Assembly: GCA_015179025.1 (NCBI GenBank)
Contig: WHUX01000223.1
Span: forward strand, 1-64,000
DNA from: Terfezia claveryi
Taxonomy: Eukaryota; Ascomycota; Pezizomycetes; Pezizales; Pezizaceae
Length of the DNA: 64,000 nucleotides
Direction: 5' to 3'
Positions 25,991 through 58,336 of the stretch are shown here, in pieces. Both the position numbers and the translations under genes were made by a program. How positions within the stretch are numbered: the stretch's first letter is position 1; each line of letters begins with the position of its first letter. The notes below the pieces were generated by a model that worked only from the letters and a program-made list of their open reading frames with translations, was not told the DNA's origin and did not search any database.

Positions 25991-27002
25991 GTTAGGAACA
26001 GATTGAGAGGAAATATGGTGTGGGGAACGACGACTAGCCAGCTTATAAGGAAATAGGAAGAATGCACGCGCGATGTAGTTGGTAATGCACACAGGCAGAT
26101 CTGCACAGCTCAGCGTTGACAATGCTGGCAACGTCCATGACAAATTGACGTTGCAGAGCTGCTCTTTTGTGTAGATAAACATTTCAATATCCTATTGACG
26201 TTGACTATGATTCAATCTAGTTAACATATACAAACTAAAAAATCCAAAGACGCCTTGCTCTGATCTCAGCTCTGATCTCACTGATCTCAGCTCTGATACT
26301 AGCTCCGAACTCAGTAAATCTGGCCTCATATCTGGCCTCAGCAGCAATAAATTTTTCATCAAGCTTCGTTTGAAACAGTTCCTGCATTTTCCACATTGCT
26401 GCCAACTATAAAGTATCAATTAGTAACTTCAGAGTGTATATACAAACCTGAGGTAATACTAACGCCAGCAAAACCATATGCCACCATGTACCCTTGCTGC
26501 ATCCGGACGTATGAGTGAATTTCCCCTTTATCGGATAGCCAATGATTATACGACTGGGCGTTCTATGCCTACATATATGTTAGGATGTCACCTGTAAATC
26601 ACTCTTCATTGTATTGCACTTACCTGCGTATTCACTCGCCTTCGCGACAATTTCCCGCGGAGTCCAACATACCGATAGCCTTTGATAAAGTGGTTGAGCA
26701 TTGCAGACGAAGCGAGCAGAAACGAGACTGGAGAGAGAGTACGCAGACAGGATCGCTGGGATGGGAGAGAATGTATGTAGACAGGATCACTGGGAGAGAA
26801 TGAAAAGCAGTAAAAAAGGAAGGATGGAGGATTTATAAAGTTGTTTGCTATAAGGCGTTTGCTATAAAGGCGTTTGCATCGGCTGCCAAGCACTAAGTAA
26901 ACCAAGCCCGACAGGTTACATAAGCATGTGAGTCCTACGTGGGAAAAAATTCACACGCTTTCGTCCTTGGTCTGATCGAGACTCCTCTGATTGGTGCCAA
27001 CT

Positions 27003-27013
27003 TAGTCTGGTTA
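27003..27013 (+). mobile_element. Nano-insert TAGTCTGGTTA
   Basis: The 11-bp insert lies between GTGCCAACT (26994-27002) and GTGTCAACT (27014-27022), a 9-bp duplication with one transition. Confidence 0.5.
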
Positions 27014-27056
27014 GTGTCAACTGTGATGTGAAGGTTGTTCATTCTCTCAAACTACC

Positions 27057-27084
27057 TAGTCTGGCTTGCACTAGCCCCTCCCGC
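27057..27084 (+). mobile_element. Longer nano-insert candidate beginning TAGTCTGGCTTGCAC
   Basis: The segment starts TAGTCTGGCTTGCACTAG and runs through CCCCTCCC to the second copy of CAAACTA (the first is at 27048-27054). Its CTTGCACT...CCCCTCC body resembles the insert in the LINE RNase H at 51612. Duplication borders are imperfect, so this one is tentative. Confidence 0.35.
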
Positions 27085-27784
27085 AAACTAAACCAGACTA
27101 CTCGTATACATATAACAAACATACAAACGGATATGCCAAGGCTAGGGGCATGGTTGCATACCGCATATGGTTGCATACCGTGTGCCAACCAGACTAAGCT
27201 CTTACCGGTACCCATCGACTGACGGACCGGGAAACGGAGGATAGGCTAGATATCTTGGCATGCCGGATAAATGAGGACTTTGTGACATAGACTTGATAGA
27301 GAGACATCGACGTACGAACTTCACAGGAAAGAACTTCTTCTGAGCTGGTGCTCACAGACTTAACGTTACGTAGGTAACACTTGACAAAGCTTACTATTGT
27401 AAAGCTTACTATTGTTTCTGACGATGAGACACTTGGAGTAAACGCTCAAACAATACGAGATCTGACGCACCTTAGCAATACTCTGTTGTCTTTCTACCGT
27501 TAGTTGAGAGTGTGAGGTGTCTTTCTTTCGTTAGGTACATTTCTCCAGCATCTAATATCTCTGGTCTCTAGCTCATCTCTAGTCTACAATTTCCCATTCC
27601 GGCACACAACCCCCTCATTCCTCCTTCGGTCCATTCCGATCCCCACACCGCTCTGCTCTGGCAACCTAGGTTTTAGGATTATCGGTAAATTCACGTTTGG
27701 GTTGTGTAATTTAATACTGATTAGTTAGCAGGTTTACAATGGGTGAAGAAACGAAAGTTTCCTTGGAAGACATCCTACTCGTCA

Positions 27785-28489
27785 ATGAAATCTAGAAAAG
27801 ATATAGAAAAGAGGATAGGGATCACGACCCTAGATCTCTATGAGACGGCAATAGCGATCAAGGAAATGTTAGCATTGGCAGGATATAGCCTCGACGAGAA
27901 GGGTTTAGAAGCGATTAGTACGATCAAGCATGAAGTATACAAGGAACTTGCGAGATATCAAAGGGTCGGGGGTCATGGAACTCTTGTGGAAGCGAATGCT
28001 AGTGATCTCGCTTTGCTCACCATCGTTCCGATTATCGACGAGTTCAAGCAAAAAACTGGCCGCCGTTCTGTGCGATTATTCCGAGAAAAGCAGATCATAT
28101 CTGTGGATGGTGAGACCGGTGGGTATGAGGAATTTGTTGTTATTGATGGGATCCAGGTTATGGAGGAAAAATATATCTTGATTATTGAGGCAAAGAGGGA
28201 ATCACTAGGTGCCGCCATGGGTCAGTGTCTATTGGCGATGAAGGACATGGGTGACAGCAATAACGGAGGTGTTGTGTATGGGTTTGTGACCACCGGTGAT
28301 AGTTGGAGGATGTTACGTTATGATGTTAGTGAGGGAAAATTCCTGGTGACAAACAAGATTGAGGCAGTATTTGATACGATGGGAAGGGACGAAGAGGGAT
28401 GGATGAGCTCGTACTCAGTTATAGTGGATTGTGTCTATGCGGCATTGAGTGATGGAGGGATTGTAAAGAAGGATCTGGTCACCGAGTGA
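27785..28489 (+). CDS. PD-(D/E)XK nuclease-fold protein, function unknown
   Basis: From the in-frame ATG at 27785 the protein is 234 residues. The helical N-terminal half (LDLYETAIAIKEMLALAGYS) is followed by a nuclease-like core: IDGIQVMEEKYILIIEAKRE, in which an Asp precedes the E-x-K pair, then GAAMGQCLLAMKDM (the Gln helix often seen in this fold) and VVYGFVTTGDSWRMLRYD. The order fits the PD-(D/E)XK superfamily, as in some Crinkler-type or fungal accessory proteins. An overlapping short frame opens at ATG 27739 (MGEETKVSLEDILLVNEI) and stops just past the chosen start; either it is an upstream ORF or a one-base shift has separated the true N-terminus. No signal peptide or membrane segment. 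A LINE fragment follows 150 bp downstream. Confidence 0.6.
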   Translation: MKSRKDIEKRIGITTLDLYETAIAIKEMLALAGYSLDEKGLEAISTIKHEVYKELARYQRVGGHGTLVEANASDLALLTIVPIIDEFKQKTGRRSVRLFREKQIISVDGETGGYEEFVVIDGIQVMEEKYILIIEAKRESLGAAMGQCLLAMKDMGDSNNGGVVYGFVTTGDSWRMLRYDVSEGKFLVTNKIEAVFDTMGRDEEGWMSSYSVIVDCVYAALSDGGIVKKDLVTE

Positions 28490-28747: not shown

Positions 28748-28749
28748 TT

Positions 28750-31870: not shown

Positions 31871-31873
31871 ATA

Positions 31874-32021: not shown

Positions 32022-32505
32022 AGAAAATCCAGTGGAAGACTTAGAGGAAATACATATAGAATTATACAAGAAATCTTAAAGAAATATAAGCAACAAAGTA
32101 TAACGAAAATTCACAAACAGATCCGGTGGCATAGTCTGGTTGGCACCTAACGGGGGTCTGGAACAAAACCAATTTTTTTTGGCTCGTTGCAATGCAATGC
32201 ACAACCTAAATCAACATCACCAATACATCACTACATTCATCTACACATTCAACTGCTTTGTGACCTGTAACAATCACATTTCGCACTGGTGGAAAACAAT
32301 GTCTTCTTCAATTAACCCAGCAGATGATCCGAATTTCAACCCAGTCACTGAGAAAGTGAAAGGTGGGGACAAAAGCACAAGAACTCATGAATGCTGATGA
32401 TGAGCGTTGATATGTCTAGTAAAGAGTAGTGTAAGTTCTTAAGTTTATTCATAGGTGTTCCTTTAGTACTAGCATTTCTTCTATACTTCCTTTATCCACT
32501 TTGGG
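32022..32505. other. Gene-free interval
   Basis: It holds a TAGTCTGGTTGGCACC motif at 32132-32147 without a clear flanking duplication. Nothing else recognisable. Confidence 0.4.
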
Positions 32506-33396
32506 TTACTGTTGTAGATACTTTACCAGAATAGGGCAAAGGGTACCTAACAAGCCGAATAAGTGGCAAAGAAGAGGTTTATAGAGCTCAATGACAATGA
32601 GTAAAACAAGAGGTTTAACCGGTTCATTGAGCAAAGAAGAGGTTTTCCTGCAAAGAAGAGGTTTACCAGCAAAGAAGAGGTTTTCCTGCAAAGAAGAGGA
32701 CCCGGCAATGATAACAAGGTGTGCCCGCAACTCAAGACTTTGTTCCTTCATCAGTTGCTGCACATAAGTGCTCTTGATATAATCCCTTAGCTGCGGGCCC
32801 TCGTTTTCCATAACCCATGATCGAATTGTTCCTTCATGGTACTTGTCCCAATGGCCGAATCTAAGCTCAAGAATTTGGGGAAGAGTGTAGTCGCGCAGGA
32901 TGTCTGCTTTAGCGAGAACTGCATTTCCGCTGCTGCCAACTGGTACATTCAGGTACTGAATTTGATAGAACTTCCGTTCAGTAACTATCAGCCGTCCGGG
33001 AACCTGGAAGACAAGATCGATACGGCCCTTTGTTTGGTCTGGCTGCACGAGACGTTGGATATTGTCTAGCTAGTGAGTAATGGATTACCTTTATCACTTT
33101 GAATTCTGCGTGTGGAACAAGAGAATGGTTTCGCAGGAGGCAGAAATAGAAGCTATCCCGATGGTTTGCCCGGTGGTGATGTCCGGTTGCATCATCAATT
33201 CTCGATAACAACCTAACGTTCGATCAAGTTCTCCATAGTTAACGAGACGCTGAAGTGCTTCTATGAGAGAGTTACGCAGATTATACTTGTGGAGAACTGC
33301 GAGAGCGATTCGATTTGCGGCAACACGATTTGGTATCTTGTCGACTTTTCCGGGTGAAACGTAAGACCGCCATAGTAGACGATTAGTGAATGCCAC
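32506..33396 (-). pseudogene. Second PD-(D/E)XK nuclease-like gene or relic
   Basis: Two minus frames, 33396-33094 (start MAFTNRLLWRSYVSPGKVD) and 33048-32506, appear to be parts of one gene. The second contains GRIDLVFQVPGRLIVTERKF, where an Asp followed by E-R-K fits the PD-(D/E)XK active site, then a long helical part (ILELRFGHWDKYHEGTIRSW, LRDYIKSTYVQQL) and LVIIAGS. It resembles fungal AAA-ATPase-like/PD-(D/E)XK accessory proteins that expand near transposons. After LVIIAGS a 20-bp minisatellite (32563-32700) replaces the expected C-terminus. The gap between frames (33049-33093) is either a small intron or a break; the TAGCTAG there ends one frame. Confidence 0.5.
32563..32700. repeat. 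GCAAAGAAGAGGTTT minisatellite
   Basis: Five copies of GCAAAGAAGAGGTTT with 5-base spacers (TCCT(G), ACCA), plus a diverged copy at 32617. It lies inside the 3' part of the nuclease-like frame. Confidence 0.8.
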
Positions 33397-33737: not shown

Positions 33738-33739
33738 CT

Positions 33740-35013: not shown

Positions 35014-37832
35014 ATGGCTGGAGGAAAGGGAAAAGAGAGTTTACCGGTATATGGACCAGTAACTGATTGGGGAAGGAAGTCCAAGTTGATTATTGAATCA
35101 AAGGAAGACGGAAAGGTAATCAGGAAAAGACAATTCATCTTAGATGAAGCCAAAGGATGGGAGGCCTCAAAAAAATTCCAGAAGATGAATGGGAAGGAGA
35201 TTCTTTCAAAAGCTATAGAAAGGACACTACTCAAAGCTAGGGAGGAAGGGGCGGAAAATGATGAAGGTCTTGCTCTTTGGACCACATTCCTTGACCGCGA
35301 CTCCCAAGGGTTCGAGTTGGATGAGGTAGAGACTATTAAAGTGGATTCAGAAGAGGCTATGGAGAGAGTCTTGAATATCGCTTCAGGGGCTTATGCGATT
35401 CAGGAGGTTTTGGAGAAGGAGGGGGAATTCGAGTTCGAGATTGAGGAGGTAGAGGTAGAGGACCTAGTCATTGAAAGAGTCACCAGCAAGGTAAAACAGA
35501 CTGATACGGGAAAAATGGCATTGGGAAGCTGGGTTATGAAGACTCCGAAGAAGTCAATGGAGGCCAGGAAGGCCAGGGAAAAGCTATGGAAGCTGGAGTT
35601 ATCCACGATTCCGGACTCCCAAGATGAAGACGAAGTTCTGAGTGATGCTGAGTCAGTACAAGCAGCAGTCACCCCGACCCCAGTAAAGAAGAAGGCAGAT
35701 ATTGGCAAACTAGAGATCTCTTTCACTCCAGCCCCAGGAAGTCCAGCTAGAGTATTATCAATAAACGGAAATCCGGTAGACCAGGAAACGCTCAAGAAAA
35801 TGGAGGATAGCAGGTGGGCTCCCCCACCTGAGCCTAAGAGAAGACAGAGAAGTTGGTCAAAGAAGCAATGAAGAGGGCTAAAGAAACATGTGAGGACGAA
35901 GATGATTTGGAGTCAGAAAAGGAAGAGGAAGATGAAGATGAAGGATCGGAGGATGAGGAGGGGGACACAGGGATGAATGATCTCGGAGTAGGAAGTTTTG
36001 CGGAACCATATTCGGGAAGGGACCGAGCAGAGGAACTCCTAGTTATTATCAAGAACGAGGAAACCTTGATTGATGCAGGAAAGGTGAAGGGAAAGAAGTC
36101 CCCAGATCTATTCAGGGCAGTCAGAGCAGCGGAAGCGAACATAGTTAGCGCAGGGTATATGATTGCACAAGAGGGGGGACTAGGTAAAGGCTGGGACTTG
36201 ATTATGGATGAAGTCAAGTTCGGTCTTGAGGATGCTAAAGAGAAGGATGCGGTTTACAGAAAAGCTTGGGATGCAAAACAGATCTATGAAAGAGTTTTGC
36301 ATAATAAGGAAAGGGAAGTTAACCGCAAGTTAACTAGGAAGGTGGACGAGATGCAGGAAGGGCTAGCCAAAATCCTTACCCACCTTGGTATCGCGGATTA
36401 TAAGGTAGAAAAAAGGATGAAGGCTAAGATCGAACAGGATAGAAGGGATAGTAAGGAGAAAAAGAGAGTAGCAGAGGAGAGAAAGTCGCTAAGGGAAATG
36501 ATCCAGAAGGAAGAAGAGACGGCAACGGCTAGAAAGAAAGCTCTTCAGGAGATGAACCTAAAAAAGAAGGCGGCAGATGAAGCAGATCAGTTAGCAAGGA
36601 AGATAAAAGAAGAGGCAGAGGCCAGTATCGCGGAGCTAGAATCTGGCTTAGGAGAAACGACAAGTAAAGAGGTAGAAAAGGCAATTAAGGAACAAATTGC
36701 AAAGATCAAAGAGGTGGTAGGAGCCTCCCAGAAGAATGCAGAGGAAGCAGGAGAAGTAGTAGGACAGGAAGGCTTTTGTCTCAAAGAGGGCAAAACACAC
36801 CGGAAAATCGAGATCACCATCTGCCATAAAGCCGAGATTACTATGGCAATGGAGAAGTCTCTCCCGGCGGCAGTTATGAGAGTTACGGCAGCCCTCAATG
36901 CGAAACTCAGGACCTTGGGAAGGAAACAATGGGAGGTGGAAGCCAAAGTGGATCGGTCAGTCTCAGGTAAAGAGACGTTATGGAAACTCGGGAAGGTCCC
37001 AAGTGACATCAGGGTTTATGATGCCTTAGAATGGCTCTTAGAACAGGCAATCCCGGTGATGAAATCAGCAGAAAGAGGTTGGATTTCGAGAGCCTCAACG
37101 GTTAGGGTTGTAGCTAGGTTCCTGATCGGAAGTGTCAGTATGTCCATGGAAGAAGTTGAGGGAGCCTTGAGGAAAGAAAATTCAAACATTAAGTGGGGGG
37201 ATAGAGATAATATCCGCTTAGTATACAATGATTGGAAGATTGAGATCGGGTCAGCGGCAGAGGCAGATAGATTGGTACGAGACGGACTGAAGTGGAAAGG
37301 AAAGAAGATTGCAGTCTTCACAGAGGCAGGGTATAAAAAGGCCGTTCCTGCAAGTGTCAGCAAATCAGGAGGGGAAGGCTTAAGCAATACATCATCTCCA
37401 CTCCCAACAGGGCCTAAGAAGTGGAGAGAAGGAACCCACCAGACAGGAAGACCGTTACAAGCAAGGAAGGTTGTGGATAAGAACACGGTCTGTTATAATT
37501 GTCAAGGCAGAGGCCACATGGCAGTAGTCTGCAAGAATCCTTGGAGGTCTCGAAACGCACCAGTCCCCTCAACGCACAAGAGGACATATATAGGGCAGCC
37601 GGGTCCATCTAATCAGAAGAAACAAAGGGAAGAAAAGGAGAAGAGTACCTCAGCGGAGAAGGTAGCCCAAGTTCCTAAGGTTGTAGAACTTGATAATTCG
37701 GAAGAGTCTGATGAGGAAGATGAGTCATGGGATGGGACGGTGGAGAGAGCATATAAGCAAGGAGACAGCGATTGGTTCCCAGATGATGAGAACAAGACTA
37801 AAGGAAAGGGGAAGCCTGTTAATGTCTGGTAA
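35014..37832 (+). pseudogene. LINE ORF1 (gag-like, zinc knuckle), one frame change
   Basis: The first frame starts at ATG 35014 (285 residues, MAGGKGKESLPVYGPVTDWG) and overlaps a second frame (35853-37832, 659 residues) by 19 bp. The second is acidic at first, then strongly coiled-coil (Lys/Glu rich, about 36240-36760), and ends with a zinc knuckle VCYNCQGRGHMAVVCKNP (CX2CX4HX4C, 37485-37540). LINE ORF1 proteins bind element RNA. The shift at 35853-35871 is probably a mutation; programmed frameshifting cannot be excluded from one copy. Confidence 0.8.
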
Positions 37833-38667
37833 GCTCAGAATAGCGTACCAGAACGTGTGTGGGTCCCATCAAAATACACACGTTCTGCTAGAATGGGCTA
37901 AGGGAATGAAGGTAGATATCGTTTTTGTTGGGGAAGCTTGGGTTAACCCAGACGGAAGTGGAACACAAATGCACTCAGCATACAAACTGGGCTCCTCGGT
38001 CCGAAAAGGGAAAAGGGTTATGGTTTACTGGAGAAGGGAAGTAGATATGGAGATTATCAAAGATGAAGATCAGCTGGTAGTCGTGGAAGTAGGAGGGGGT
38101 AGAATAGGGGGAGTATATAGAAAAGGAGGTACAAATAGGGAAAAAACGGAAAGGTTCTTCAACAGGGCGTTAAGAACAATTGGGTTAGGAAAAGGATGCC
38201 TTATTGGGGACTGGAACGCTCACCACGAGACTTGGAGTTTAGGGGGAAATAGAGACATGCCAGGGACAGTTCTAGCGGAACTTATGGAGGAGAATGGTTT
38301 GGAATTGGCAGGAGGAAACGGGGCAACATGGGAAAGAGTAAGGAACGGGGACTTAGAACAGAGCAGGATTGACTTAGCTTTCGTCAGGGATTCGGTAATC
38401 CCTACAACGAGTCAGGCGAAACTAACGTCAGATCACTGGGTGGTATGGCAAGACTTTGAGTGGACGGTTAAAACGGAGGAGCAGAGGAGAAAGGCAGTGG
38501 ACTGGGATAAGCTGGATAGCCTGATACAAATGGTTCTGGATTCCTCTGAGAGTACGAAGGAGGAGTGGTATGAAGGCTTAAAGGGACAGACGGCTTACAA
38601 AAAGCTTTTATCACTCAGAAAATTAGTGGGTAAAGAGCTTAGGATTTCGGGAAAGAGTAAGCTATAG
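37822..38667 (+). pseudogene. LINE ORF2: APE-type endonuclease domain
   Basis: Frame from the ATG at 37822, which overlaps the ORF1 stop by about 11 bases, a common fungal LINE arrangement. Motifs in order: LRIAYQNVCG (Asn), IVFVGEAWV (Glu), LIGDWNAHHETW (Asp/Asn/His), SRIDLAFV and LTSDHWVV (Asp-His). These are the catalytic residues of the exonuclease-endonuclease-phosphatase fold that nicks target DNA. The frame ends in TAG at 38665-38667, continuing in frame after it, so the stop is a mutation. Confidence 0.88.
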
Positions 38668-41399
38668 TGGGATGAAGAACTCTCAATTCAGCTCAAGAGA
38701 ACCAGAAAGAGTAGGAAAGACAGGGAGGACGGACTATCACAAGAGGTTAGAGTCAAGAGATGGAAAGCAGAACAGGTCAAGATGAGAAGGATGGTAAAAG
38801 AGAAGAAGCAGGCCTGCTGGCAGAAGTTTTGTGAGGAAAACGGGGAGAAAGATCCTTGGGAAGTGACCAAATGGGCGAAGGATCCATGGAGACTTAAAGG
38901 GTCGATGGGCAAGCTTAAAGATAGGGGGGGATTAGAGTTAGACTCGGACGAGGATAAGGTCAAGGGACTAGTAAGAGACCATTTCGGATGGGAGGAATCT
39001 GGTCGCCAAGTAGGAATAGAAAGGGAAAGGAACGGAGTAGAGTTTGAAGGTCGACTGGGAAAGGAAGATTCAGATGAGGTCGAAGGGTAGGTCAAAGAAG
39101 CTCTCGCCAAAACAAGCAATGCTTCAGCACCGGGTCCAGACGGCATCAGCTACAGGTTTATTAAGGCAGTCATGAAAACCCCCCTTGGTAAAGCATTAAT
39201 CAAAGAAGTGGTAGAGAATATCAAGGCAGGGAGAGCCCCGAAGGAATGGCAGGATAGCAAAGTGGTTTGATCCCGAAGCCGGGAAAGGATCATAATACAA
39301 CAAAAGGTTGGAGACCAATCAATTTGATAAATTGCATTGGCAAGCTGGGAGAGAAGGTCATTGCGGATAGATTACAAGGGGCGGGCTTATTCCATAGACA
39401 CCAGTTTGGATCAGTCAAGGGAAGAAGCGCAATCGAGGCAGCCCTTCGAGTCATCACTAGAGCTCAAAGATGCATGGCTAGTAGAGGAGCAGTTGGGTGG
39501 GGATTTTGGGACGTGCAAGGAGGCTTTCAGAATGCAAGAGAAGAGGACGTAATAAGGCAACTAGGAAAATCGGAGGAAGGCAAAAAGTGGATCCCTTATG
39601 TTCGGGAATTTTTTAGGACTAGGGAATTTGAGATTGAATGGGATGGTAAGGTAAGAGGAATAGGTAGGACCAACTTAGGAGTCCCACAAGGTTCACCACT
39701 ATCACCAGTAATTTTCCTCATTTGGATGGCACCAATCTTAGAGGAAATGGAAAAAGAGATTAGGGAGTTTACAGAAGCGGAGGTGGAGTTACCCTCATAT
39801 GTGGATGATATTCAGGCAGGACTATGCATCTGGGATGAAGCAAGGGCAAAAGTTGTTGATATGGATCAACTCCTCCACTACGTTGACCTCGTTATTAACA
39901 GGGTGGCAGCATCACACAATCTCCCCCTTGAACGGTCAAAGCATGAAGAGCTAGTCTTGAGAAGGAAAAGAAGGAAGAAGAATAAGGACGTGAAGATGGT
40001 AAAGTGGCTTGGAATAATCATGGATGAGAGCTTGACCTTCCGGGAACACTGGAAAGCAAGAATTCAGAAGGCTAGGTCAATGCTAGGGAGATGCAATGGG
40101 ATCGGGAACTCCCAATGGGGAATCAGCCCAATGAGCTGGAGGAACTTATATACCGGTATGATAAGAGCAATTGCTCTCTGGGGCTCGGAATTAGGATGGA
40201 GAGGTCAGCGAGACTGGGAAAGAGAGTTTGAAAGTCTTCAGTACCAAGCCCTTAGAAAATGTACAGGAGCTACGAGAGGCTCCGAGAAAAGGTTGGTTAG
40301 CCAGATTGCTGGAGTTGAAAGTCCGGATTTGGCTATGAAGGCAGGACAGGCCAGGCTGTTAGGGAAGATTCTCAAAGATCCAACAGCGGTGGGAGATTTG
40401 ATCAAGGATGAAGAGGGAGGAATAACAACAGCTGTCACAACCCTGTTACGGAGAGTGGAGGAGGTGGCAGGCAAAAAATTCAGGCTTAGTTTCGGAGGAC
40501 CTTGTGAGAAGGTGAATATTCCAGAGGTTAACTTCGGACTAGGGGAGAGAGATGACAAGGGGGTATGGCAAAAGAAGATTTACGAAGCTGGAGTAGACCA
40601 TTCAACAGTCTTCACGGATGGAAGCATGAATGAGTATGGCAATGTCGGAGGAGGATGGTGGAACCCGGACTTGGTACAGGGAGGGGATCTAGGGATGGGG
40701 AAGACAGCGACAGTATGGGACGGAGAGATTGGAGGCATGATAGGAGCCCTTAGGTTTGGACCCAGAGATAAAAAGGTTATTATTCTCTCGGATTCACAGG
40801 CAGCGATTGCAGCAGTAAAAGTTGCGGGAAAAAGAGGAAAAGCCAGGACGAGACACCTTAGACAGGTGGTGGAAGATATCCACAAGAGACAAGAGATCTT
40901 GGGCCCAAATGCTGTAACCCTAGGTTGGGTGAAGGCGCATGTTGGAATCCACGGAAATGAGAAAGCAGACAGAATGGCCAAAAGGGGGGCAAATAAGGAG
41001 TCACGGGATACCCTGGTCACAGAGGGGGGGCTAAGGCAGGCATGGACAAAAAGAAGGAAAGCGGAAAGGGAGGAAAAGGGGGCTGGGTTAGGGAGGACTC
41101 TCAAATGGAACAGGAAAGCCCTCCTGAACTACACCCAATGTCGGACAGGTAAAGGTAGGCTGGGGTGGTGGAGGTACACTTTAGACAACTATGAAGATCC
41201 AACTTGTGCACACTGTCTTCAACTCGAAACAGGCTCACATGTCGCTCTAACATGCTCAGCAGGGGAATGGCTAGGCAGAAGGTGGAGCTCGTGGGAGCAA
41301 GCAGATGACAAGGAGGTGTGGCAACGCATAGAGAAGAGGGAGGATGGAGATTACTTAGTCGACAGGGTGGAGGAATTTTTCACTTTGTTAAATCTCTGA
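38668..41399 (+). pseudogene. LINE ORF2: reverse transcriptase, RNase H, CCHC
   Basis: After the stop at 38667 the frame runs on to a second TAG at 39088-39090, then SNASAPGPDGISYRF (RT start). A one-base loss near 39268 shifts to the 710-residue frame ending at 41399. That frame holds PKPGKDHNTTKGWRPINL, GVPQGSPLSPVIFLIW, the catalytic SYVDDIQAG (39796), and a complete RNase H: FTDGSMNE (40613), WDGEIGGM, ILSDSQAA and WVKAHVGIHGNEKAD. The end has CAHCLQLETGSHVALTC, a CCHC-type zinc motif typical of Tad-like elements. Confidence 0.9.
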
Positions 41400-43809: not shown

Positions 43810-46800
43810 ATGTCACCATCTCCCGTCTCTACCGCCGCGGCAACAGCGCTTCCCTCGCCCCGCCTTGCCCCTCCCGTTGATAATTACGCAAGCTCATTAG
43901 CATCGAACCCACGTGCCTCAGTATCTCAAAGCGACCTACATAGTGACCTCCGCGAACTTCGCGCGAAGGCAAAACGCTGGACACGATGGTCCCGGAACCC
44001 TCTGTCAGAAGAGCTGCAATATGGGGATGGTGGGGAAGGACCTACAGGCTCAGCAGCCGAGACAGCAGTTGATGTTGATCTTCATGATGTAGTTGAGAGA
44101 GGTATGTACGGTTCAATTCTTGATAGCCTTCACTAGCTGCTCACCACCCAATCCTGCAAATAGCGCTTCATAACTTCAAAATTCCTTTTGAAGCCTTCTC
44201 CCCCGAATGGGCGTCAACCTCCCACAAGGAGCAGCCACTATCACAATCACTAGAAGATATCCGTCCGCGGATTGAGTCAAATCTGGATCGCATAGGCAGC
44301 TACCAACGCGGCCACGATGGCGCAGCAGGAAAATCCTCCACAACGTCTACTAGTGCCCCTTCACACTGGGAGTTTACAAAAGCAAATATTCTTGCCCTTC
44401 AAAAAATCGATGCTTGGCTACAGAAATCTGAACACCCTTTATGCGATGATGTGCGAAGCTGGTTGTGGCGCGGCGTGCACCTCATAATTGAATTCTTGAC
44501 ATCGCCAGACAATAATGTTGCTGGGGGATTATGGACCTTGGAACAATTCTGCCAAGCACTGCAAGAGCTGTCTGTGGTACTCCCGAGTAGTTTGTACCGC
44601 GTCCCGAGCAGAGAGATACTCCATGAAAAGCAAGTTCAAGCTGTGACTGGATTTATTTATGCCGATGTCCTGGAGCTTATTGTATCGGTGGTTCGTGACG
44701 TGATTCTTCCGGTGCAGCCAGAGCAGAGCAGCCCTGGTGGTATTATTCGACAGGCAATAATGGGCAAGACAAGAGAGCATCACCACCATTTCACACGATG
44801 GAATCAGGGAGCAAGAATGTCGATTAATACCAATGTCCCTGCCACCGGAGGTTCAGCTCCCACCTCTCCTACCAGTAGCGTAGCAACGAAGAAGCAACCT
44901 TCGCTCCCAGAATGGAAGAACTGTTTGCGAACCGTTCTGGAGCAGGTTGGATATCACTCCAAGCTCTTGCAGAGGGAGCTTAGTCACCTACAGGTGAAGG
45001 AGAAAAGTGCTCGGTTCAGGGAGATTACCCAGCTCTTCGATAAAATCGAGGAGGCTGAAGACACTGAGAAGGAGTGTAGAAGGTGTCTGAGGGAAGTGGA
45101 ACAATTGATGGGAAACACTCCAAGTGACTACAAGCACCCTAATCGGAGGCGTTCAGATTCCTCGCAGAGTTCGGAAGAGCTGCCATTGAGCGAAGTAACC
45201 ATAAGGGCTGGCGGATCGGGACTGGGCGAGCATTTGGCAGGATTGGAGGAGAAACGGGTGGAGCTAGTTCGAAAATATAAAACAGCAAGACAGGAGAAAG
45301 AAGCAGCATGCGCGAAGTTGTATGAGGAGGCTGGCCACATTAAATGTGATGTGTGTACCTATACTGCCTTTGAAGATTCTGGACCAAAAGGGACACAGGA
45401 TCATGAGGTTGTATTTTCGTCGAATTTGAGAGAGTTTTCGAGTTTTATTGGTGGTGAGGGGATTGAAAACAGCGAAAGTGATAATAGTGAGGATTCGGGA
45501 GTTACAACCCAGCGAAAGGCTTTATTCAAGCTTTAGTAAGTAGCCATATCAAAGAGCTCAACCAATGCATTAGCAACTAATACGGCTTCTCAAGCGTCAC
45601 GAATGATTCTACAGTTGATTCACTGAAGGATGCTAACCCTCGGTTTCTATTGAATCGCCGAGGAAGAAAGGCCCTTGACGAAGAGCCTAATCTATGGTCA
45701 TTCGCAAGAATGCCTGGACATATAAATCCAAATTGTAAGTCTCATTCTACCTTATGGAAAGGAAAGCCACGGGAAAATTAACCCTCGATTTTCATGATAT
45801 AGGGAGATTTATAAAGACAAGTCTACCGAATCTAGAAAAAGGTTTTGGCTCAGAAGCCAGACGCTATGCGATGGAAGCTCGTGACGAGACATGTAAAACT
45901 TTCCCCCTTCTCCATATTTGCTCTCGACTGACTATTCCTAGCTTATTTCTATAATACTACTTGGAAGGTATATTGGTGCCAACCGCGTTCTCACGAAACT
46001 ACAGCATGTCCAGTAGCTATTCTCGTCCTCGCCGGGGATGATCTCCCTCTCAGTCGACCCGTTGACCCGTCTCCTAAAGCCCAGCATAACTTCGAAAGAG
46101 CTCGGCACGAACTCGTTGCGTATTATCGGCAAAACTTTCATGTTCCCCTGATTGAGCGTGGGAGCATTGTCTCTGCGGACAACCTCGCCGTCCAGATTTT
46201 GGGTGAGACAAAAAGGAGGTGGAGGGAGGTGCTAGATAGAATGCGGCATTTCGTGGATGTCCTTACTGATAGGTTGTACGTTCAAGCATCGAACTCCAGC
46301 TTAACTATGGGGGCTGCAGAGCAGCGCAAAGCTACAGAGGCATTGGCATCATACAATCATGCTGCTGGTCAGGTATTGAAGATTTTACTCAGGGTCAACA
46401 GCTATGAGAGTATGTTGATAGAGACGATGTCATATCTGAGCCAGTTGGGTGATGAGGACATGTTTCTTGGTGCCGGGAAACCAGATTTGCTCCAACTCCA
46501 TGATGAGAACGACGAAGGAAGCCCACATCACCACCAACCCACAAGTTGTACCAATACACGCAGTCAATCCCGCAATGGTTTATATGTTACGGCAAGGGCA
46601 CCGAAAGTCAAGTGGCAGGATATTAAACGAAGTCATCAAGATCTCCTTGAGTCTCTCAGATCAGCCAAGCGACAAGCCGACTCACTCAAAAGCCTCATTG
46701 ACCATGAACACTCCATGTACGAATCGCGAGTTTCGAACCAACACTCTTTGATCGCCAATATCCATGCAGCAGAAGCCACCAGACAAGCCGACGAAGCCGC

Positions 46801-47158
46801 TGCACAGAACGCAAGTATGCGCAGACTGACTGTTGTCACATTTATCTTCCTCCCGTTGACATTTATATCTTCGGTATTTGGGACGAATGTAAGGGAGTTG
46901 GGGCAGGGGACTGTGCCCATCTGGATATTTTTTGCTGTGGGACTTCCGTTCGCGTTGTCGGTATTGGCCGCGTGGGGGTATATGGAGTTCTGGAGGCAGG
47001 GAACAAGAAGTGAGGGGAAAGGTGGGGAGAGAAGTGGCAAGAGGAGGGTAGAGGTGGAGGTGGAGAGGTTGAGTGAGTTGGCGCAGGGGCGGGGAGGGGA
47101 AGGGGAGGAGCAGGGTACTAGCAGGGGGGTATGGGAGGGGGCCGAGAGGATGGTGTAG
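43810..47158 (+). CDS. CorA-like membrane protein, five exons
   Basis: Exons 43810-44101, 44164-45535, 45595-45734, 45803-45892 and 45942-47158 join in frame (introns 62, 59, 68 and 49 bp; donors GTATGT, GTAAGT, GTAAGT, GTAAAA) to give 1036 residues. The long N-terminal part is cytosolic-looking with a coiled-coil stretch (about residues 370-460). Exon borders rebuild RYAMEARDETSYFYNTTWKV, typical of a fungal CorA-related family. The C-terminus has a coiled coil (residues 850-920), TM1 LTVVTFIFLPLTFISSVFG (about 927-945) and TM2 VPIWIFFAVGLPFALSVLAA (about 956-976), then a basic tail. The usual GMN pore motif is GTN (46880-46888), so magnesium transport is uncertain. Divalent-cation transport is family knowledge; specificity is unknown. 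Confidence 0.8.
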
Positions 47159-48520
47159 GCTGCAGCCAGTGGCACGAGGCGGTCTTGCCTTCCCTGATCT
47201 ACACCGCAAGGTGTAATACGCAGGAAGATACAACTACTAATGATTTTGGCTTTTGATATCTGGTTCAAATTTGCAATAGGTATGCATGGTTTGGCGGAGC
47301 ATAGGTTATATCAGAAAATGGGCTTGGATTTGTTGCTACATCTGTCAAATTTTTTTTTATTTCTTGATTCTAGACATACTGTACTCCGTACTAGCTGGTC
47401 TTTCAATAGGAGATGAAACTCTGATCGGGTATGCAGAGTGGATGGGATTGAATTGGAGCACCCATTTTAGTTTTTGGTTCACGGTTGGGTAAGATATGGG
47501 GGAGGGACAACACGGGGCACTGAATGACGAAATTGTATGTATACATCTTAGTCTATATAACGAACTTATTACACATGTGCTTTGGTTGATCATCGTGTTA
47601 ATTTCTGGAATGTTACTAATGACTTCCTTTCTATTTTTTCTTTTTTTTTTTTGTTTACATATTAAAAATATGTACAGTACAGAGGCAGCACCGATATCTG
47701 CTCTCTAGGCCGTTGCTTACATATGTATCTACTCGAGATGTCCTTGACTACTTCTTTTTTTTTTTTTTTCTTTCTTATTTTGCTTTCGGTTCCCGGGCTT
47801 CGGAGTGGTGTTGATAACCCTCAGGGACAACTGATCTCTTGCATATTGCTGCAGCATTGCTGCAGCATGTAGATACACTACTGTATATACATGCACCCCT
47901 GATGTAAATCCTGTACTTTTGCTTCTCTTGCATACAGTAGGTACTTACCGTATGTCAAACATTCACCATCTCAAAAAGCTATTAACTTGCGCAACTAGAT
48001 CCATCACATCACGTTGTAGGTACCCCACCCATTGTTTATTTGTTTATGTGAGAGTTTTTGAAAAGAAAAAAAAAATCCATTATTTTCGTGATTCATTTGT
48101 GATTTTGGGTGGTATCTGTGCCATAGGTGGTAGTCTGGTTGGCACCAGACATATGTGGCTACACGGATGGCTGGGTTGCATCTCGCTCTAGCCTGATTGG
48201 GTAGGTATTGAATTGAGTTCGGTGGTGTCACTTAGAGTTCATATTCATATTAAAACAACTCAGTGCCCCATAAGGGGGGCCATGGCGAGGCTCCCGAAAT
48301 CCAGGATAGATTCAAGCGACGAAGAAATTAATCTTGCGAGAGTGGTACATAGTGAATGAAAGTGAGAATGACAAAACGGCTTGCAGAGCTATTCTATTCA
48401 TGTTGTAATATCGTGCATTGGTCCTATATGGATCTACATAAGTAGAGGTCAGGTCATGATAATCATGATCAGTGTTGGTGTACGTCAAGCAACGGCGTGT
48501 ACAATCAAGATTCGTAGGGT
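47159..48520. other. Gene-free interval
   Basis: It includes T-runs at 47637-47651 and 47754-47770, a near-palindromic CTGCAGCATTGCTGCAGC at 47850, and a nano-insert at 48131. No convincing gene. Confidence 0.5.
48131..48149 (+). mobile_element. Nano-insert TAGTCTGGTTGGCACCAGA
   Basis: The 19-bp insert lies between CATAGGTGG (48122-48130) and CATATGTGG (48150-48158), a 9-bp repeat with one mismatch. The insert ends CCAGA(C), which could be the inverse of its own start. Confidence 0.55.
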
Positions 48521-48947: not shown

Positions 48948-48979
48948 CGGAATACCATGTTAATTCGCAAGTAAGACAG

Positions 48980-48993
48980 GTGCCAACCAGACT
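48980..48993 (-). mobile_element. Nano-insert AGTCTGGTTGGCAC (minus), copy in U1
   Basis: GTGCCAACCAGACT lies between GTAAGACAG (48971-48979) and GTAAGACAA (48994-49002). The homologous site in the T2-U2 copy has a single GTAAGACAG (50009-50017), i.e. an empty site. Confidence 0.8.
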
Positions 48994-49706
48994 GTAAGAC
49001 AATATCACTCGGCAGGACAGTTTTAGTGTATAAGACAGGGCGCTAACAGCCTAAGCTTGGCCGAGATATCCTAATCGTGTATTAGACAGTATATTTTTCA
49101 TATAGGACAGTAGTTTGGGTAACCTTGACGTTGACTGACGCAGCCGGTTTCTTACACTCATAACAACCTCACTTGTTCCAATGTCAATTCCGCTGGTACC
49201 TCGTGCTGGACCCCGAGCAATGCAACTGCAGAACTCTGAAGCGGACACAGATTCTACCACTATCAAAGATGGATTGGTGTGGCACAAGATGTTTCAATGC
49301 CTTACGTGAGGCTAGTACGGCCTCTAGAAAGGACGCAACCGCTATGAATACTCCAATAAGACATCAATATACCTGGGAGTTCAAACTGGCAACTACCTCC
49401 TGAGTCTGAAGACCAACTCGACCTGCCAGCAGACACAGAAGATGAAGGTTCCGACCTTAAGATGAGGAGGAGGCGGATGGAAGTGATGATGAGCAAGGAG
49501 ACTATATTACTGAAGAAGGGCTATTCAATATACGCTTGGGGAGGAGATCGTGTAACTAAATATCAATATGCCACTGTCGGCGTCTTTCCGGAAATTCTTT
49601 TATAAGACAGATCTCGTGATTAAGCTAATACTATCATATAAGAAAGACAGTTATGGTATATGACTCCAGAAGAGAAAAAGTGTTCCTAGAAATAAAAGAG
49701 TTCCCC

Positions 49707-49852: not shown

Positions 49853-50677
49853 TGATGTTTTGCTGGGCGCCGAGGGTAAGGATGGGAGATCACGGCCCAG
49901 GTATATCAGGATATCCGCGAACAACCTACCCCTCTCAGTGACACTCAGTCACCAATCTGTGCTACGCACACAGAGGGTAATGGTATTCAATACCATATTA
50001 ATTCGCAAGTAAGACAGTATCACTCGGCAGGAGAGTATATAGTGTATAAGACAGGGCGCTGATATTATAATGGCCTAAGCTTGGCCGAGATATCCTAATC
50101 GTGTATTAGACAGTAAATTCTTCAAAGAGGGCAGTAGTGTGGGGTAATCTTGACGTTGACTGACGCAGCCGGTTTCTTACACTCATCACCAACCTCACTT
50201 GTTCCAAAGTCAATTCCGTTTGTACCTCGTGCTGGACCCAATGCGCAAACAACAAGCCAAAAACCCCGAGCAACCTCTGTTTTGCAACCGCTTTGAATAG
50301 TCCAATCTAGTCTCATGCCAGTCCAATGGTCCAATCTAAAGACATCAATACACCCGGGAATTCAAACTCCTGAGTCTGAAGACCAACCCGACCCGCCAGC
50401 AGACACAGAAGATAAAGGTTCGAACCTTAAGATTTTAGATGATGAGGAGGAGGCGGATGGAAGTGATGATGAGTAGGAGACTATATTACTGAAGAAGGGC
50501 TGTTCAATATGCTAAGATTACGCTTGGGAAGGCGATCGTGTCGGCGTCTTTCCGGATTTTCTTTTATAAGACGATCTCAGTACAGTATCATATAAGGCAG
50601 TAAGTATTACGGTATTAAAAGCGAAGCGATGCGAATGACTAGAGCCTTTAGTGTTCCTAGGAATAAAAGAGTTCCCC

Positions 50678-51192: not shown

Positions 51193-52160
51193 TTGACACT
51201 CTATGAGCCCTCCGATCCCTACTCCAACTGCGTAGGAGGATGGGCAGCTAAGATTGGAAGCCAACTGGCAGAAGGATGGAGGAGAGCCTACGCAGATAGC
51301 ACAGGCAGGGCAGGGCACTCGGCAGCAGCTTTTGTATCCAAGGACTGGAAAGGCAACCCAGCATTAACGGGACACGAGTACGTAGGGGAAGAATCAACGG
51401 TAGCCGACGCGGAACGCCTGGCGATCCTGTTAGCTCTCAGACATCATCGAGAGACAAGCATGCTACAGATCCTCTTGGATTCCAGCTCCGCCATATCTAG
51501 CGCCGTAAACCTAGCGAGAGGAGAAGCGGGGAGGAGTGGTATCGAGTGTGAAATAGCAGAACTCCTGATAGAACGACACCAGAATTTTTACGACACAGCC
51601 ATCTCCTGGGTAGTCTGGTTGCACTTCTTACCCCTCCACAGAGGTCTCCTGGGTACGCTCGCACATCGGCATAGAGGGCAACGAGGAAGCAGACAAGCTG
51701 GCCTCGTTCAGCTCTGCGCTAGGACAAACCATGCTTCTGGACTCAGGTAACGGAAGGAGGAATCCGGACGGGATTGAAGGCGATAAGGAGCGCAGAAAGG
51801 ACAAGAAGGGGCTTCGGCATCCGGAGACCGGAGTGGAACAGGCACGCACTATCAGCATATACCTGGACAAGAACGGACAAGGGCCCCCAAAAGTATTGTC
51901 TACATCGGGTCAGCAAATCGGGGTCGAGCGCCTGCTCCTGCGGACACCACACACAAAACGGAGCACACCTCGTTTTTGACTGCCCGGATCTTGAGAGGGA
52001 AAGGGCGGCCCTAGGCAGCATCAAGGACTGGGAAGACATCGATCGCCCCATATGGATCAGAGAGGAGGACGGGGACGACTGGGATGCGGTAGAGGCCTTC
52101 TTCAGCCTCTTATATAGACACATGGTGGGCAGAGGAGGAAGCGTGTATGGGTATTGCAGC
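51193..52160 (+). pseudogene. LINE RNase H and C-terminal zinc motif
   Basis: The first frame has SNCVGGWAAKIG, VADAERLAILLALRHH (Glu), LLDSSSAISSAV (Asp) and NFYDTAISWV; at this point a 33-bp insert plus duplicate shifts the frame. Beyond it, in another frame, comes RSHIGIEGNEEADKLA, the RNase H end with the last His and Asp. The tail frame (51774-52160) contains CSCGHHTQNGAHLVFDC, the CCHC typical of these LINEs. The first RNase H Asp region is diverged (YADSTGRAG). Confidence 0.85.
51612..51644 (+). mobile_element. Nano-insert (33 bp) in the LINE RNase H
   Basis: TCTCCTGGGT occurs at 51602-51611 and 51645-51654. The insert starts AGTCTGGTTGCAC and ends CCACAGAGG. Removing the insert and one duplicate (43 bp) restores AISW-VRSHIGIEGNEEADK exactly, which proves an insertion event. 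Confidence 0.85.
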
Positions 52161-52886: not shown

Positions 52887-52916
52887 GAATACCATGTTAA
52901 TTCGCAAGTAAGACAG

Positions 52917-52930
52917 GTGCCAACCAGACT
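52917..52930 (-). mobile_element. Nano-insert AGTCTGGTTGGCAC (minus), copy in U4
   Basis: GTGCCAACCAGACT lies between two perfect copies of GTAAGACAG (52908-52916 and 52931-52939). Same event as in U1. Confidence 0.8.
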
Positions 52931-53640
52931 GTAAGACAGTATCACTCGGCAGGACAGTTTTAGTGTATAAGACAGGCTAAGCTTGGCCGAGATATCCTAA
53001 TCGTGTTTAGACAGTAGATTTTTCATATAGGACAGTAGTTTGGGTAACCTTGACGTTGACTGACGCAGCCGGTTTCTTACACTCATCACCAACCTCACTT
53101 GTTCCAATGTCATTTCCGCTGGTACCTCGTGCTGGACCCCGAGCAACCTCTGTTTTGCAACTGCAGAACTCTGAAGCGGACACAGATTCTACCACTATCA
53201 AAGACGGATTGGTATGGCACAAGATGTTTCAATGCTTTACGTGAGGCTAGAAAGGATACAACCACTATGAATACTCCAATAAGAGATCAATACACCTGGG
53301 AGTTCAAACTGGCAACTACCTCCTGAGTCTGAAGACCAACCCGACCTGCCAGCAGACACAGAAGATGAAGGTTACGACCTTAAGATGAGGAGGAGGCGGA
53401 TGGAAGTGATGATGAGCAAGGAGACTATTCTACTGAAGAAGGGCTGTTCAATATGCTAAGATTACGCTTGGGGAGGAGATCGTGTAACTAAATATCACTA
53501 TGCCACTGTCGGCGTCTTTCCGGAAATTCTTTTATAAGACAGATCCCGTGTTTAAGCTAGTATCATATAAGACAGTAGTAAGTAATACGGTATATGACTC
53601 CAGAAGAGAAAAAGTGTTACTAGAAACAAAAGAGTTCCCC

Positions 53641-54560: not shown

Positions 54561-54567
54561 ACTGCTC

Positions 54568-55380: not shown

Positions 55381-55395
55381 GTGCCATTGTTTGCC

Positions 55396-55409
55396 AAGCC
55401 AACCAGACT
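55396..55409 (-). mobile_element. Nano-insert AGTCTGGTTGGCTT (minus)
   Basis: AAGCCAACCAGACT lies between two perfect 10-bp copies of ATTGTTTGCC (55386-55395 and 55410-55419). Confidence 0.75.
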
Positions 55410-55481
55410 ATTGTTTGCCGGTAGACTCGTATTCTAAAACAGTTAGTAAGTAGGTGTTGCTTGGCGCTGGGAGTAGGTACC

Positions 55482-55488
55482 ACCAGAC
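55482..55488 (-). mobile_element. Nano-insert ACCAGAC, 7 bp
   Basis: It lies between two perfect copies of TAGGTACC (55474-55481 and 55489-55496). This is the shortest case. Confidence 0.5.
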
Positions 55489-55531
55489 TAGGTACCGGTA
55501 TCACTTGCCAGAGTAGAACACCCCCGCCAAA

Positions 55532-55562
55532 TAGTCTGGTTTGCCAAAGACAAGCCAGACTA
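55532..55562. mobile_element. 31-bp element TAGTCTGG...CCAGACTA
   Basis: The two ends are inverted repeats (TAGTCTGGTTTG and CAAGCCAGACTA, one mismatch in 12), flanked by CGCCAAA at 55525-55531 and 55563-55569. An internal copy of GCCAAAGA (55543-55550) equals the right flank, so two nested insertions, each with its own duplicate, is the alternative reading. Confidence 0.65.
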
Positions 55563-55569
55563 CGCCAAA

Positions 55570-56435
55570 GAGTAGGCAAGTCTAGCCACCCAATCACTTT
55601 TAGTCTAGCGCTTCTTCTCCTGCATAGCACAAAGCTATTGTTACGGTCATATTTAGACTCTCATGTCACTTTCTTTTTTTCTACTCCAAAAGACAGTCAG
55701 CCTAAGGGTCCCGGAAGGAGTCAATCTTGTGATAATAACATGCCGCATTGCTCTCCTTTGCGAATTCTCCAACTTGAATATATATTATCACGATGTATTA
55801 CAACCTTTGCTAACTTGATTCCCCACTGCTCAAGGAGGTTTCCAGTGATATCGTCTAGCTGCTAACCTTACCAATTGCACGTGTAGTTTTTGCCATTGAT
55901 ATTGCAGTAGAGGTTGACTGCTTGAGCCTGCCCACTGCGTCAGCCAGAATCCGACCTAGAGTCAGAGCCAGCGACTGTTACCGCAGGAGATGGAGGGATT
56001 AACTGGTGTAACGTATCTTTTCATGGTATGCTCTGATGGAGTGGGATCTCGAGGGTGGAGTAGGACAGAAGGTGGGGTTATTATGCAGCACGAAGCAAAA
56101 ACTTCATAAAGGTGAACAGTCCCTCCAGGCGACGAAGCATATCGCAGCCAGCTGTTAGAAGTACTAGGATATGATGCAGCCGCAATGTATGAAGGTAATG
56201 AGCAAGATGTGATGTCGTGTGTAATCATGCTCTCATTATGATCCCCTTCAAGACCCTCTGACGAAGAGTCGAACTCAATTGTACAGGTCCCAATACCTGG
56301 TTCATGACGGCCAAAAGGAACTATGGTCCTTCACCTCCCCTCAATGCACAGCGATGCAAAATATGATAAAGAAATACAATATAATTGCCCCTCAAATTTA
56401 GCCCTAAACTTCCAACGCTGGTTTTCTTGTGCCTA
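55570..56435. other. Gene-free interval
   Basis: Nothing recognised; possibly the flank or LTR of the copia relic that follows. Confidence 0.4.
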
Positions 56436-57250
56436 TATAGTTAATTAGTAAAATATCTCTAGGGGTTCGTAGACTATGCTCGGCAAATCAACATGCACAG
56501 AGGCTATGAGCGGGCTGTGGAAAGTGGAGGCCGAATTCTACACATAAATGATGAATCGTTGAACGAGAGAGTGGTTTAGTGAATATGTTGGCAACTTGAT
56601 CAACAGTGGGGAGTTATTCCACTTTAATTAGTCTTTCAGTAACATCTCTCTGATGAAGGTTGATGTGTCGAGTTCTGTTGGTTTGTTGTGACCTCATTCG
56701 CCAAATTATTCGCATTTTCATTGTCACCCAGCAATATAACTGGCAATGCAACCTCCAGCTGCAGACCCCTGAATAGATTCACCCAGCACACTTCTCTTGT
56801 AACCTCAGTCACCGCTAGGCATTCAGCATGAGTGGTAGATAAAGAGATGGACTTGAGCTTTTTGCTTTTCCATAGTAGGGGACTGGAGTATAAAACCACA
56901 TAAACTCGAAAGACTTCTTTGTCAGTGGAGAATCAAAAGAGGCGGAAATTTTGTGAGAGGGGAATTCCGTTCTTGACGATCACACAGTCAGGGCCACCCT
57001 TGTCAGCCTCATGCCCTTGAATGCCCTTTAAACATCGCAATAAATATTTGGCATCTGCCATAAGTGCTTTGGAAGGAAAAGCCGCAACTTGAGCCAGTTT
57101 CGTGACGGCATATAACCCAAAGAACCTACCAGTGCCTGATATATCCGGTTTTCTGTAGTGGAAAGTAACTCATTATCCGATTCTTTGATCAATAATATTA
57201 TGTACTCAAAGCCAATGGGAATCTAAGAAGGATTGCATTCCGGCATTCCA
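56436..57250 (-). pseudogene. Ty1/copia RNase H relic
   Basis: Minus frames read RIYQALVGSLGY (about 57145), ADAKYLLRCLKG (about 57060), then LLWKSKKLKSISLSTTHAEC and LAVTEVTREVCWVNLF (56870-56790), LLGDNENANNLAN, and a closing stretch VEYLPTVDQVANIFTKPLSR-like (one stop in it) near 56600. This is the copia RT-connection and RNase H end. Stops and lost histidine region show decay; no LTRs recognised. Confidence 0.8.
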
Positions 57251-58336
57251 TAAGTCTCGAGGATTTCTTTGCAATATGAGCCTGGACACCGGTGAAAGGG
57301 GTATAGAATTACCGGAAGCGGCGGTTCACAACTAATATGAAGCGCCATGGCAGAAAAGAGGTACTTGGTGCTGGTCGCGTGACTGCCTGATCTCGTGACT
57401 GACTGATCTCGTGACTGCCCTTCAGCGATAAAGTGATAGAGGCAGCCTCCCCGTAGTCTGGTTGGCACGCCCCCCCGATATACGAAACTATGCCCTGTCT
57501 CCACTAGACTTTGTATGGGAAAGATAAGATACCCTCGGTGTAAGCTGGCTTCTCAGTGGAGAGCTCCTCTTTTATTTCCGGGGTTATGACTTGCGGCGGT
57601 CCCTTGCATCGTTGATGTAGCTGGCCAAAGAGGACTCTTTCATCACCCTTCGGTCTATGGCAATCATACCCCAAATCAAGCGACTATACACAAGATTGGC
57701 TTCGTGGCCTGGGTTTCTGGGGCTGGGGTGTTTTAAATCTACTCTTTGGCGAACCAGACCCCAAAGGCCCTTACCCTCAGCCTCAGCTCAGCTGTATTGT
57801 ACGGTACAGCCCTGCATACGTTCCTGACGTGCACTGCACTGGGATTGACGCCATATCCGTCCCCGACCCCTCTCGAGCTGTCACGCCGCAGGACAGGGCG
57901 ATCTGGGGATAGCGACTGGTGTACTCTACTCTACATCGGTTGGTGACTTGGGTGGCGCAACAATGTCGGACTGTAAGTAAGCCCCGCCCTTTCCCCTCGG
58001 CGAATCTTTTGGAGTTTGCATGCGTCACAAGGCAGCCTGGGGGTGTCAGCTGGACGGCAGCGTTATATATTTATTGGACGGCGTGTGGGTTGTATATTTA
58101 TTGGACGGTGTGTGGCTAGAATATTCCACTGGGTTTCAGGCGAGAGATAAGTGGGAATCAATCTGGGATTGTCCGTACCAAGTAGAGCCGGGAATAAACT
58201 TGGGAAACAAATACAAACACACACAGTGCAAGTGAGCGCCTCGAAGGTATAGGCGGCTTTCGCCAGACGCAGACGAAAATAAAAACTACACGGAAAAGTG
58301 CCGACGTTCGAGATACTGGAATCCCTTCGCAGCCTG
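57251..58336. other. Gene-free interval and upstream region of the vWA gene
   Basis: It contains a nano-insert at 57454 and a duplicated GGACGGCGT..TATATATTTATT block (58055-58110). No gene recognised. Confidence 0.45.
57454..57468 (+). mobile_element. Nano-insert TAGTCTGGTTGGCAC
   Basis: The 15-bp insert lies between GCCTCCCCG (57445-57453) and GCCCCCCCG (57469-57477), 8 of 9 identical. Confidence 0.6.

Follow-up and report, generated by a model that had tools for sequence, protein, structure and literature searches.

Ultra-short insertions sharing one end in the genome of Terfezia claveryi: probable scars of large cut-and-paste transposons

The window analysed here is a 64-kb piece of the genome of Terfezia claveryi (72.6 Mb, 794 contigs). 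It carries numerous ultra-short insertions that share one end, TAGTCTGG, and lie directly against short direct repeats. They are probably scars left by large DNA transposons that form one cut-and-paste family (about 8-9 kb; target duplication, 9 bp; ends, TAGTCTGGTTG...). The clear inserts correspond either to one transposon end (one-armed) or to both ends joined (two-armed), placed between two copies of a 9-bp target.

The end is abundant throughout the genome. Its 15-nt form TAGTCTGGTTGGCAC has 2,885 matches, distributed over the two strands (1,432 and 1,453), and its reversed control has none. The terminal 11-mer TAGTCTGGTTG defines 5,960 ends (control, 57). In the window, the 8-mer TAGTCTGG is found 17 times for 2.2 expected, and a count of at least 17 was reached in none of 100 shuffles. 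Flanking repeats were tabulated for the 98 TAGTCTGG ends of the window and of 20 stretches of 10 kb (264 kb in all); density and partly also arm length (at least 15) are biased in this set, because the 20 stretches were picked for the exact 15-mer. An exact 9-bp direct repeat enclosing an insert of 7-74 bp is found at 27 of these ends, and a repeat with at most one mismatch at 45; 20,000 positions drawn at random from this sequence give 0.8% and 3.2%, respectively. None of the nine reversed 8-mer controls has an exact repeat. When the length of the repeat is left free, a peak appears at exactly 9 bp (20 ends, versus 0.23 per 98 random positions). Variants of the 8-mer with one mismatch (202 ends) give 9 exact 9-bp repeats and 28 with at most one mismatch. 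In these 264 kb, the tabulation of flanking repeats advocated by a preliminary description of the window gives repeats far above chance. Of 58 distinct inserts, 42 have a 9-bp target that starts with C or G and 43 one that finishes with C or G (background, 45%).

The places of the window are listed below; the term scar follows the preferred reading. The function of + and - is to give the strand.

48980..48993, -: one-armed scar AGTCTGGTTGGCAC, 14 bp, flanked by TTGTCTTAC at 48994-49002 and CTGTCTTAC at 48971-48979, which differ at one position.
52917..52930, -: the same 14-bp scar in a duplicated copy, exact repeats CTGTCTTAC at 52931-52939 and 52908-52916.
49989..50151, -: paralogous empty site, single CTGTCTTAC, no insert.
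51611..51644, +: one-armed scar, 34 bp, exact repeats TCTCCTGGG at 51602-51610 and 51645-51653.
55396..55410, -: one-armed scar TAGTCTGGTTGGCTT, 15 bp, exact repeats GGCAAACAA at 55411-55419 and 55387-55395.
57454..57468, +: one-armed scar TAGTCTGGTTGGCAC, 15 bp, repeats GCCTCCCCG and GCCCCCCCG, one mismatch.
48131..48149, +: one-armed scar, 19 bp, repeats CATAGGTGG and CATATGTGG, one mismatch.
27003..27013, +: probable one-armed scar, 11 bp, repeats GTGCCAACT and GTGTCAACT, one mismatch.
55482..55490, -: probable scar TAGTCTGGT, 9 bp, exact repeat of 6 bp only, GGTACC.
55532..55562, +: two-armed scar TAGTCTGG...CCAGACTA, 31 bp, exact 7-bp repeat CGCCAAA.
11965..11978, -: probable one-armed scar, 14 bp, absent from the preliminary description, repeats GAGCAAGAG and GAGCGAGAG, one mismatch.

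Nine of these places had already been described as the same end set against a target duplication, and this holds: the repeat is an exact 9-bp one at three, a 9-bp one with one mismatch at four and a 6- or 7-bp one at two. The duplications themselves stand; their proposed range of 6-10 bp is best read as a fixed 9 bp blurred by decay and chance matches. Likewise, the inserts are as short as had been claimed, but the nine places measure 9-34 bp rather than 7-34 bp. The weakest of the nine is 27003, whose repeat GTGCCAACT looks like an inverted copy of the arm itself. The scar at 51611..51644 ends just after a possible hairpin, CCTC-CACA-GAGG. A further two-armed unit, TAGTCTGGCTTGCACTAGCCCCTCC...CCAGACTA, is located at 27057-27100 and has no clear direct repeat.

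The places 48980 and 52917 share descent, as had been proposed: they belong to duplicated copies of one sequence, which carry T/CTGTCTTAC-AGTCTGGTTGGCAC-CTGTCTTAC. The third copy (49989-50151) runs through with one CTGTCTTAC, and the filled copies therefore have a net gain of 14 bp plus a 9-bp duplication. As far as sequence comparison can tell, this empty paralog fits insertion of a tiny unit and excision of a large element alike. A comparison among the sequences examined covered 106 inserts, counting duplicates, whose repeat is 7 bp or longer, and 15 alignments from 13 inserts were found to span the junction elsewhere; no clean empty site was found among the 106 beyond the window family (48994 and 52931 versus 49989-50151). 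The other junction-spanning alignments are L012/L039 (one place present twice), L045/L052 (filled duplicates) and short or partial matches of L017, L023 and L024.

A long parent element with the same end, which the preliminary description had called for, is present in the genome. A 28-nt arm has 60 genome copies, among which one convergent pair is found on contig C135 and delimits the following element.

C135:449886-459000: parent element, 9,115 bp, inverted ends identical over the 56 bp read, 9-bp duplication CGTTCTGGT.

Both junctions were read: CGTTCTGGT is followed by TAGTCTGGTTGGCACAAGCCCCTCGTAGAGGGTCTGGAACAAAACCTTTTTTTTTA, and the inverted copy of the latter by CGTTCTGGT. The 17-mer GGGTCTGGAACAAAACC has exact genome matches at three places only, namely the two ends of this element and position 32154 of the window; the window sequence from 32132 onwards is therefore taken as a truncated relative of the parent. 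Two ends of the window are of full-length type.

32132..32683, +: truncated end of a full-length parent relative, sharing GGGTCTGGAACAAAACC with both C135 ends.
25220..25254, -: second full-length-type end, belonging to another subfamily and running on into GGGTCTGG.

The similarity of the former to C780:22166 ends around 32683, and a different repeat begins around 32699. Downstream, the window carries a LINE-like (long interspersed nuclear element) element at 37690-41399, with endonuclease (PF14529/PF03372), reverse transcriptase and RNase H domains.

The exact full-length-type pattern (TAGTCTGGTTG N8-30 GGGTCTGG), which diverged full ends escape, is found at 33 genome places (control, 0), versus 5,960 TAGTCTGGTTG ends. 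Nearly all ends thus stop before the adjoining part of the element. The pattern also forms convergent pairs on C235 (51350-59448, 8,099 bp) and on C257 (251972-253498, 1,527 bp). A search of about 300 kb for inverted ends separated by over 60 bp and flanked by a 9-bp repeat, one mismatch being allowed, gave no pair; outside the window this search was weak, as stretches of 3-10 kb leave hardly any room for a 9-kb element. Two other candidate parents were discarded: an arm pair 4.7 kb apart on C793 corresponds to two separate one-armed scars, and the repeat shared by L023 and window 25254 has a full-length-type end and, in L023, a tandem-repetitive body, its other end not being found. L023:1862-4167 contains two inverted copies of about 650 bp, each led by a different TAGTCTGG arm, with tandem repeats beside one of them. 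Compared with L023:3835-4167 and 1848-2198, window 24937-25254 shows 31 of 38 and 30 of 39 substitutions as G>A or C>T in the window copy, a bias that would be expected from repeat-induced point mutation (RIP).

Between its inverted ends, the C135 element encodes a DEAD-type helicase, found in a 600-bp piece (L060). The annotated T. claveryi protein P0008 is identical to this fragment over the matched part and carries PF00270 and PF00271. The helicase may be described as RecQ-like, a reading of one motif and of the Helicase_C domain rather than a family call. A protein search with it gave 26 proteins, the named sources being T. claveryi, T. boudieri and Tirmania nivea; the genome has seven matches, the weakest on C788 (E 5e-4). 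The profile of DUF6589 (PF20231) has 43 matched stretches in the genome. Three of these (one below the family cut-off) belong to the C135 element, on the strand opposite to the helicase. On five of the seven helicase contigs (C135, C235, C300, C95, C127), a DUF6589 match and the helicase converge at a distance of about 3-11 kb; C776 and C788 have no DUF6589 match. The pair of ends at C235:51350-59448 encloses a helicase match and a DUF6589 match, which converge as they do in the C135 element. The 9-bp duplication by itself would suit Mutator-like elements (MULEs). Domains of other transposon groups were searched for and rejected as marks of the parent: neither the MULE domain (PF10551, 21 genome matches) nor that of Kyakuja-Dileera-Zisupton (KDZ) elements (PF18758, 9 matches) is found on C135 or C235. 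On C773, a MULE domain is located 5 kb from an arm.

The anatomy of the inserts was established from 58 distinct ones with an exact 9-bp repeat, overlapping stretches and parent pieces being excluded (L003-L005, L039, L056, L057, L060, L061). Arm scoring gives 51 one-armed and 7 two-armed inserts; these shares are not genome-wide frequencies, as 15 loci were picked for palindromes and 13 of the 58 inserts come from stretches picked for a 30-nt arm or an arm pair. Among the one-armed inserts, 28 consist of a known transposon end alone, flush with the second repeat; in 9, the arm is followed by 1-7 additional bases. The longest exact match to a known full end is 33 nt, and GGGTCTGG is found in none of the 58. 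Among the 27 inserts with exact repeats from the set that was selected without regard to arm length, 12 measure 10-16 bp, none 17-23 bp and 11 24-36 bp; 4 are longer. The 30-nt arm is found at 53 genome places. In 13 of the 21 copies read, a perfect 9-bp repeat is reached by 33 nt, and in another 4 the repeat has a single mismatch, L045 and L052 being duplicates of one insertion and the repeat of L040, at 21 nt inside the arm, being possibly due to chance. The four copies without a repeat are L037, a full-length-type end, and L041, L043 and L049.

Inverted pairs of exact 15-mers within 60 bp are found at 46 places genome-wide (92 of the 2,885 ends). A perfect 9-bp repeat is present at both outer ends in 6 of the 15 two-armed places read (L001, L006, L007, L008, L013, L015). 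The interior is unique among the 46 at 38 places; four interiors are found twice each, on different contigs (C190/C301, C3/C408, C615/C773, C623/C767), and may result from segmental duplication, recurrent joining or true mobility of a short unit. More complex arrangements are also found. L045/L052 (C46, C120) and L029:5070-5130 have the structure target-arm-target-arm-target, with a near-identical 9-bp target present three times and two different arms in opposite orientation; they may have arisen because one target was used more than once, or through template switching during repair. L017:7192-7411 contains nested scars, the newer insertions being located in the hairpin loop of older arms, which suggests that the palindromic tip of an arm is a preferred target.

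Excision could generate such products as follows. On leaving, the transposase would cut the first strand where the element meets its target and the second strand some 33 nt further in, immediately ahead of the inner copy of GTCTGG, which starts at 33 nt in the commonest subfamily. After this staggered cut, both broken ends would carry single-stranded 3' arms. Repair would retain one arm, flush to the other target copy, or more rarely both arms; the flush one-armed product would arise if one arm were sealed to its recessed partner while the other was cut back as far as the boundary. The arms could fold into small hairpins, and it is suggested only that a hairpin-opening or trimming nuclease fixes the final length. 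Nucleases of the Artemis/Pso2 or Mre11 type can open hairpins. The 33-nt arm of the commonest subfamily folds into two hairpins, GTTG-GCA-CAAC and CCTCC-ACA-GGAGG. Of the favoured kept lengths, 15 and 26-29 (the latter depending on the subfamily) each reach one base beyond a loop, that of the first and that of the second hairpin respectively, and 31-34 come close to where the second hairpin ends; the 30-nt pattern favours or hides some lengths, a 29-bp insert entering only if its target starts with G. A more specific version is tentative and rather doubtful: the DUF6589 protein would be an as yet unrecognised transposase and, with the helicase, would excise the element with a stagger of about 33 nt, the hairpin arms would be opened one base past a 3-base loop, and the genome would be a countable archive of several thousand excisions.

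The main rival of excision is aborted integration, in which an end is joined to a 9-bp staggered target and the element is cut away before repair ends, so that it never resided there. It would give nearly the same flush one-armed product with a 9-bp duplication, and the excess of remnants (5,960 ends versus 33 of full-length type) is easy to understand if most integrations fail. The two-armed copies (7 of the 58 inserts; 46 genome places), however, would need both ends to be joined and then cut, and aborted integration is considered unlikely, albeit a serious competitor. The inserts could also be mobile in their own right. The preliminary description had proposed nano-MITEs (MITE, miniature inverted-repeat transposable element) or excision footprints of a transposon with terminal inverted repeats ending in TAGTCTGG and duplications of about 9 bp. 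The evidence favours the footprint half of this proposal; the nano-MITE half fares poorly. In the latter, two-armed units of 23-54 bp would themselves be mobilized by the transposase of the parent. Two-armed units with perfect 9-bp repeats do exist, and the four interiors found twice could be copies of one unit. MITEs are non-autonomous units with two inverted ends, which the 7 two-armed inserts would have; the 51 one-armed ones do not, and their inability to pair two ends argues against mobility. So do the interiors of the two-armed units, most of which are unique, and the absence from every insert of the GGGTCTGG of full ends. Such nano-MITEs are therefore improbable.

Two models without any DNA transposon had also been put forward, and both conflict with the fixed 9-bp duplication, with two-armed inverted copies flanked by direct 9-bp repeats and with a DNA element that has the same ends. 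Retroposition of a short, 5'-truncated RNA ending in CCAGACTA would explain why one end is constant and the other variable; it is very improbable nonetheless. Still less credence is given to filler DNA copied into staggered breaks, to which the extra bases behind the arm of some inserts would correspond, since a single end recurs thousands of times and is flush to a 9-bp repeat in the clear cases; the parent element also disfavours it.

Several observations weigh against excision scars as a full account. Even with one mismatch allowed, 53 of the 98 TAGTCTGG ends have no 9-bp repeat; three of these are full-length-type ends (window 25254, window 32132, L023:4167), and the others require decay, nesting or chance, some belonging to nested clusters (L017:7192-7411). 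Fourteen of the 51 one-armed inserts have at least 11 bases without an exact match to the ten full ends used, which may be other subfamilies, nested insertions or filler. Nine of the 15 two-armed places read lack a perfect repeat at both outer ends, and the triple-repeat structures (L029, L045/L052) demand a second event. The gap at 17-23 bp is leaky: one 19-bp insert is found among 18 one-mismatch inserts, and inserts of 17 and 23 bp are present in the larger set. The position of the cut is deduced from its products rather than from the reaction itself. Kept arms seem to stop at small hairpins, but this weakly supported link between length and loop was noticed post hoc; the hairpins of five arms are not clearly more stable than those of shuffles (z -0.3 to -1.6), and stem length exceeds that of shuffles at p<0.05 in just 5 of 13 distinct full ends. 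Lastly, no catalytic transposase was identified, DUF6589 being a candidate only.

Footprints of Drosophila P elements retain stretches of the terminal repeats between target duplications. The P element makes an unusually long, 17-nt staggered cut and generates 8-bp duplications (PMC7776569). It is thus a precedent for cut-and-paste transposition with a long stagger, and the cut logic proposed here would be similar; the stagger of the Terfezia family would be about twice as long (about 33 versus 17 nt). Membership of the P/THAP9 group is not claimed: the duplication is 9 bp instead of 8 bp, the scars are mostly one-armed and the element, of 8-9 kb, carries a helicase and DUF6589. In Academ elements, the target duplication is 3-4 bp, which would not fit 9 bp. 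AcademH is described as a low-copy fungal element with a DEAD/Helicase_C helicase (PMC10799480), and the Terfezia element likewise is low-copy and fungal and has a DEAD/Helicase_C helicase between inverted ends. The likeness, which lies in the helicase and the low copy number, would not suffice for assignment to AcademH.

Excision scars of cut-and-paste elements are usually too small to be recognised without comparison of strains. The Terfezia scars differ in this from Stowaway/mariner footprints, as the kept piece (about 8-34 bases) is recognisable in a single genome without comparison. Among the titles and abstract openings listed by the literature search, none describes scars of this kind in Terfezia, and DUF6589 is not mentioned in the papers searched; as these lie mostly outside subscription journals, the evidence is weak. 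As the scars are legible in one genome, target preference and repair outcomes could be measured over very many jumps; the genome may hold a readable record of thousands of them, though few intact copies were found. Where a fungus mutates long repeats, a transposon could survive by staying at very few copies and leaving short scars. DUF6589 is a protein family as yet uncharacterised, and its presence with a helicase within an element defined by inverted repeats suggests a function that can be tested.

A CorA-like magnesium transporter gene (PF01544), probably a host gene, is located at 46199-47158 of the window, about 1 kb from the scar at 48131.

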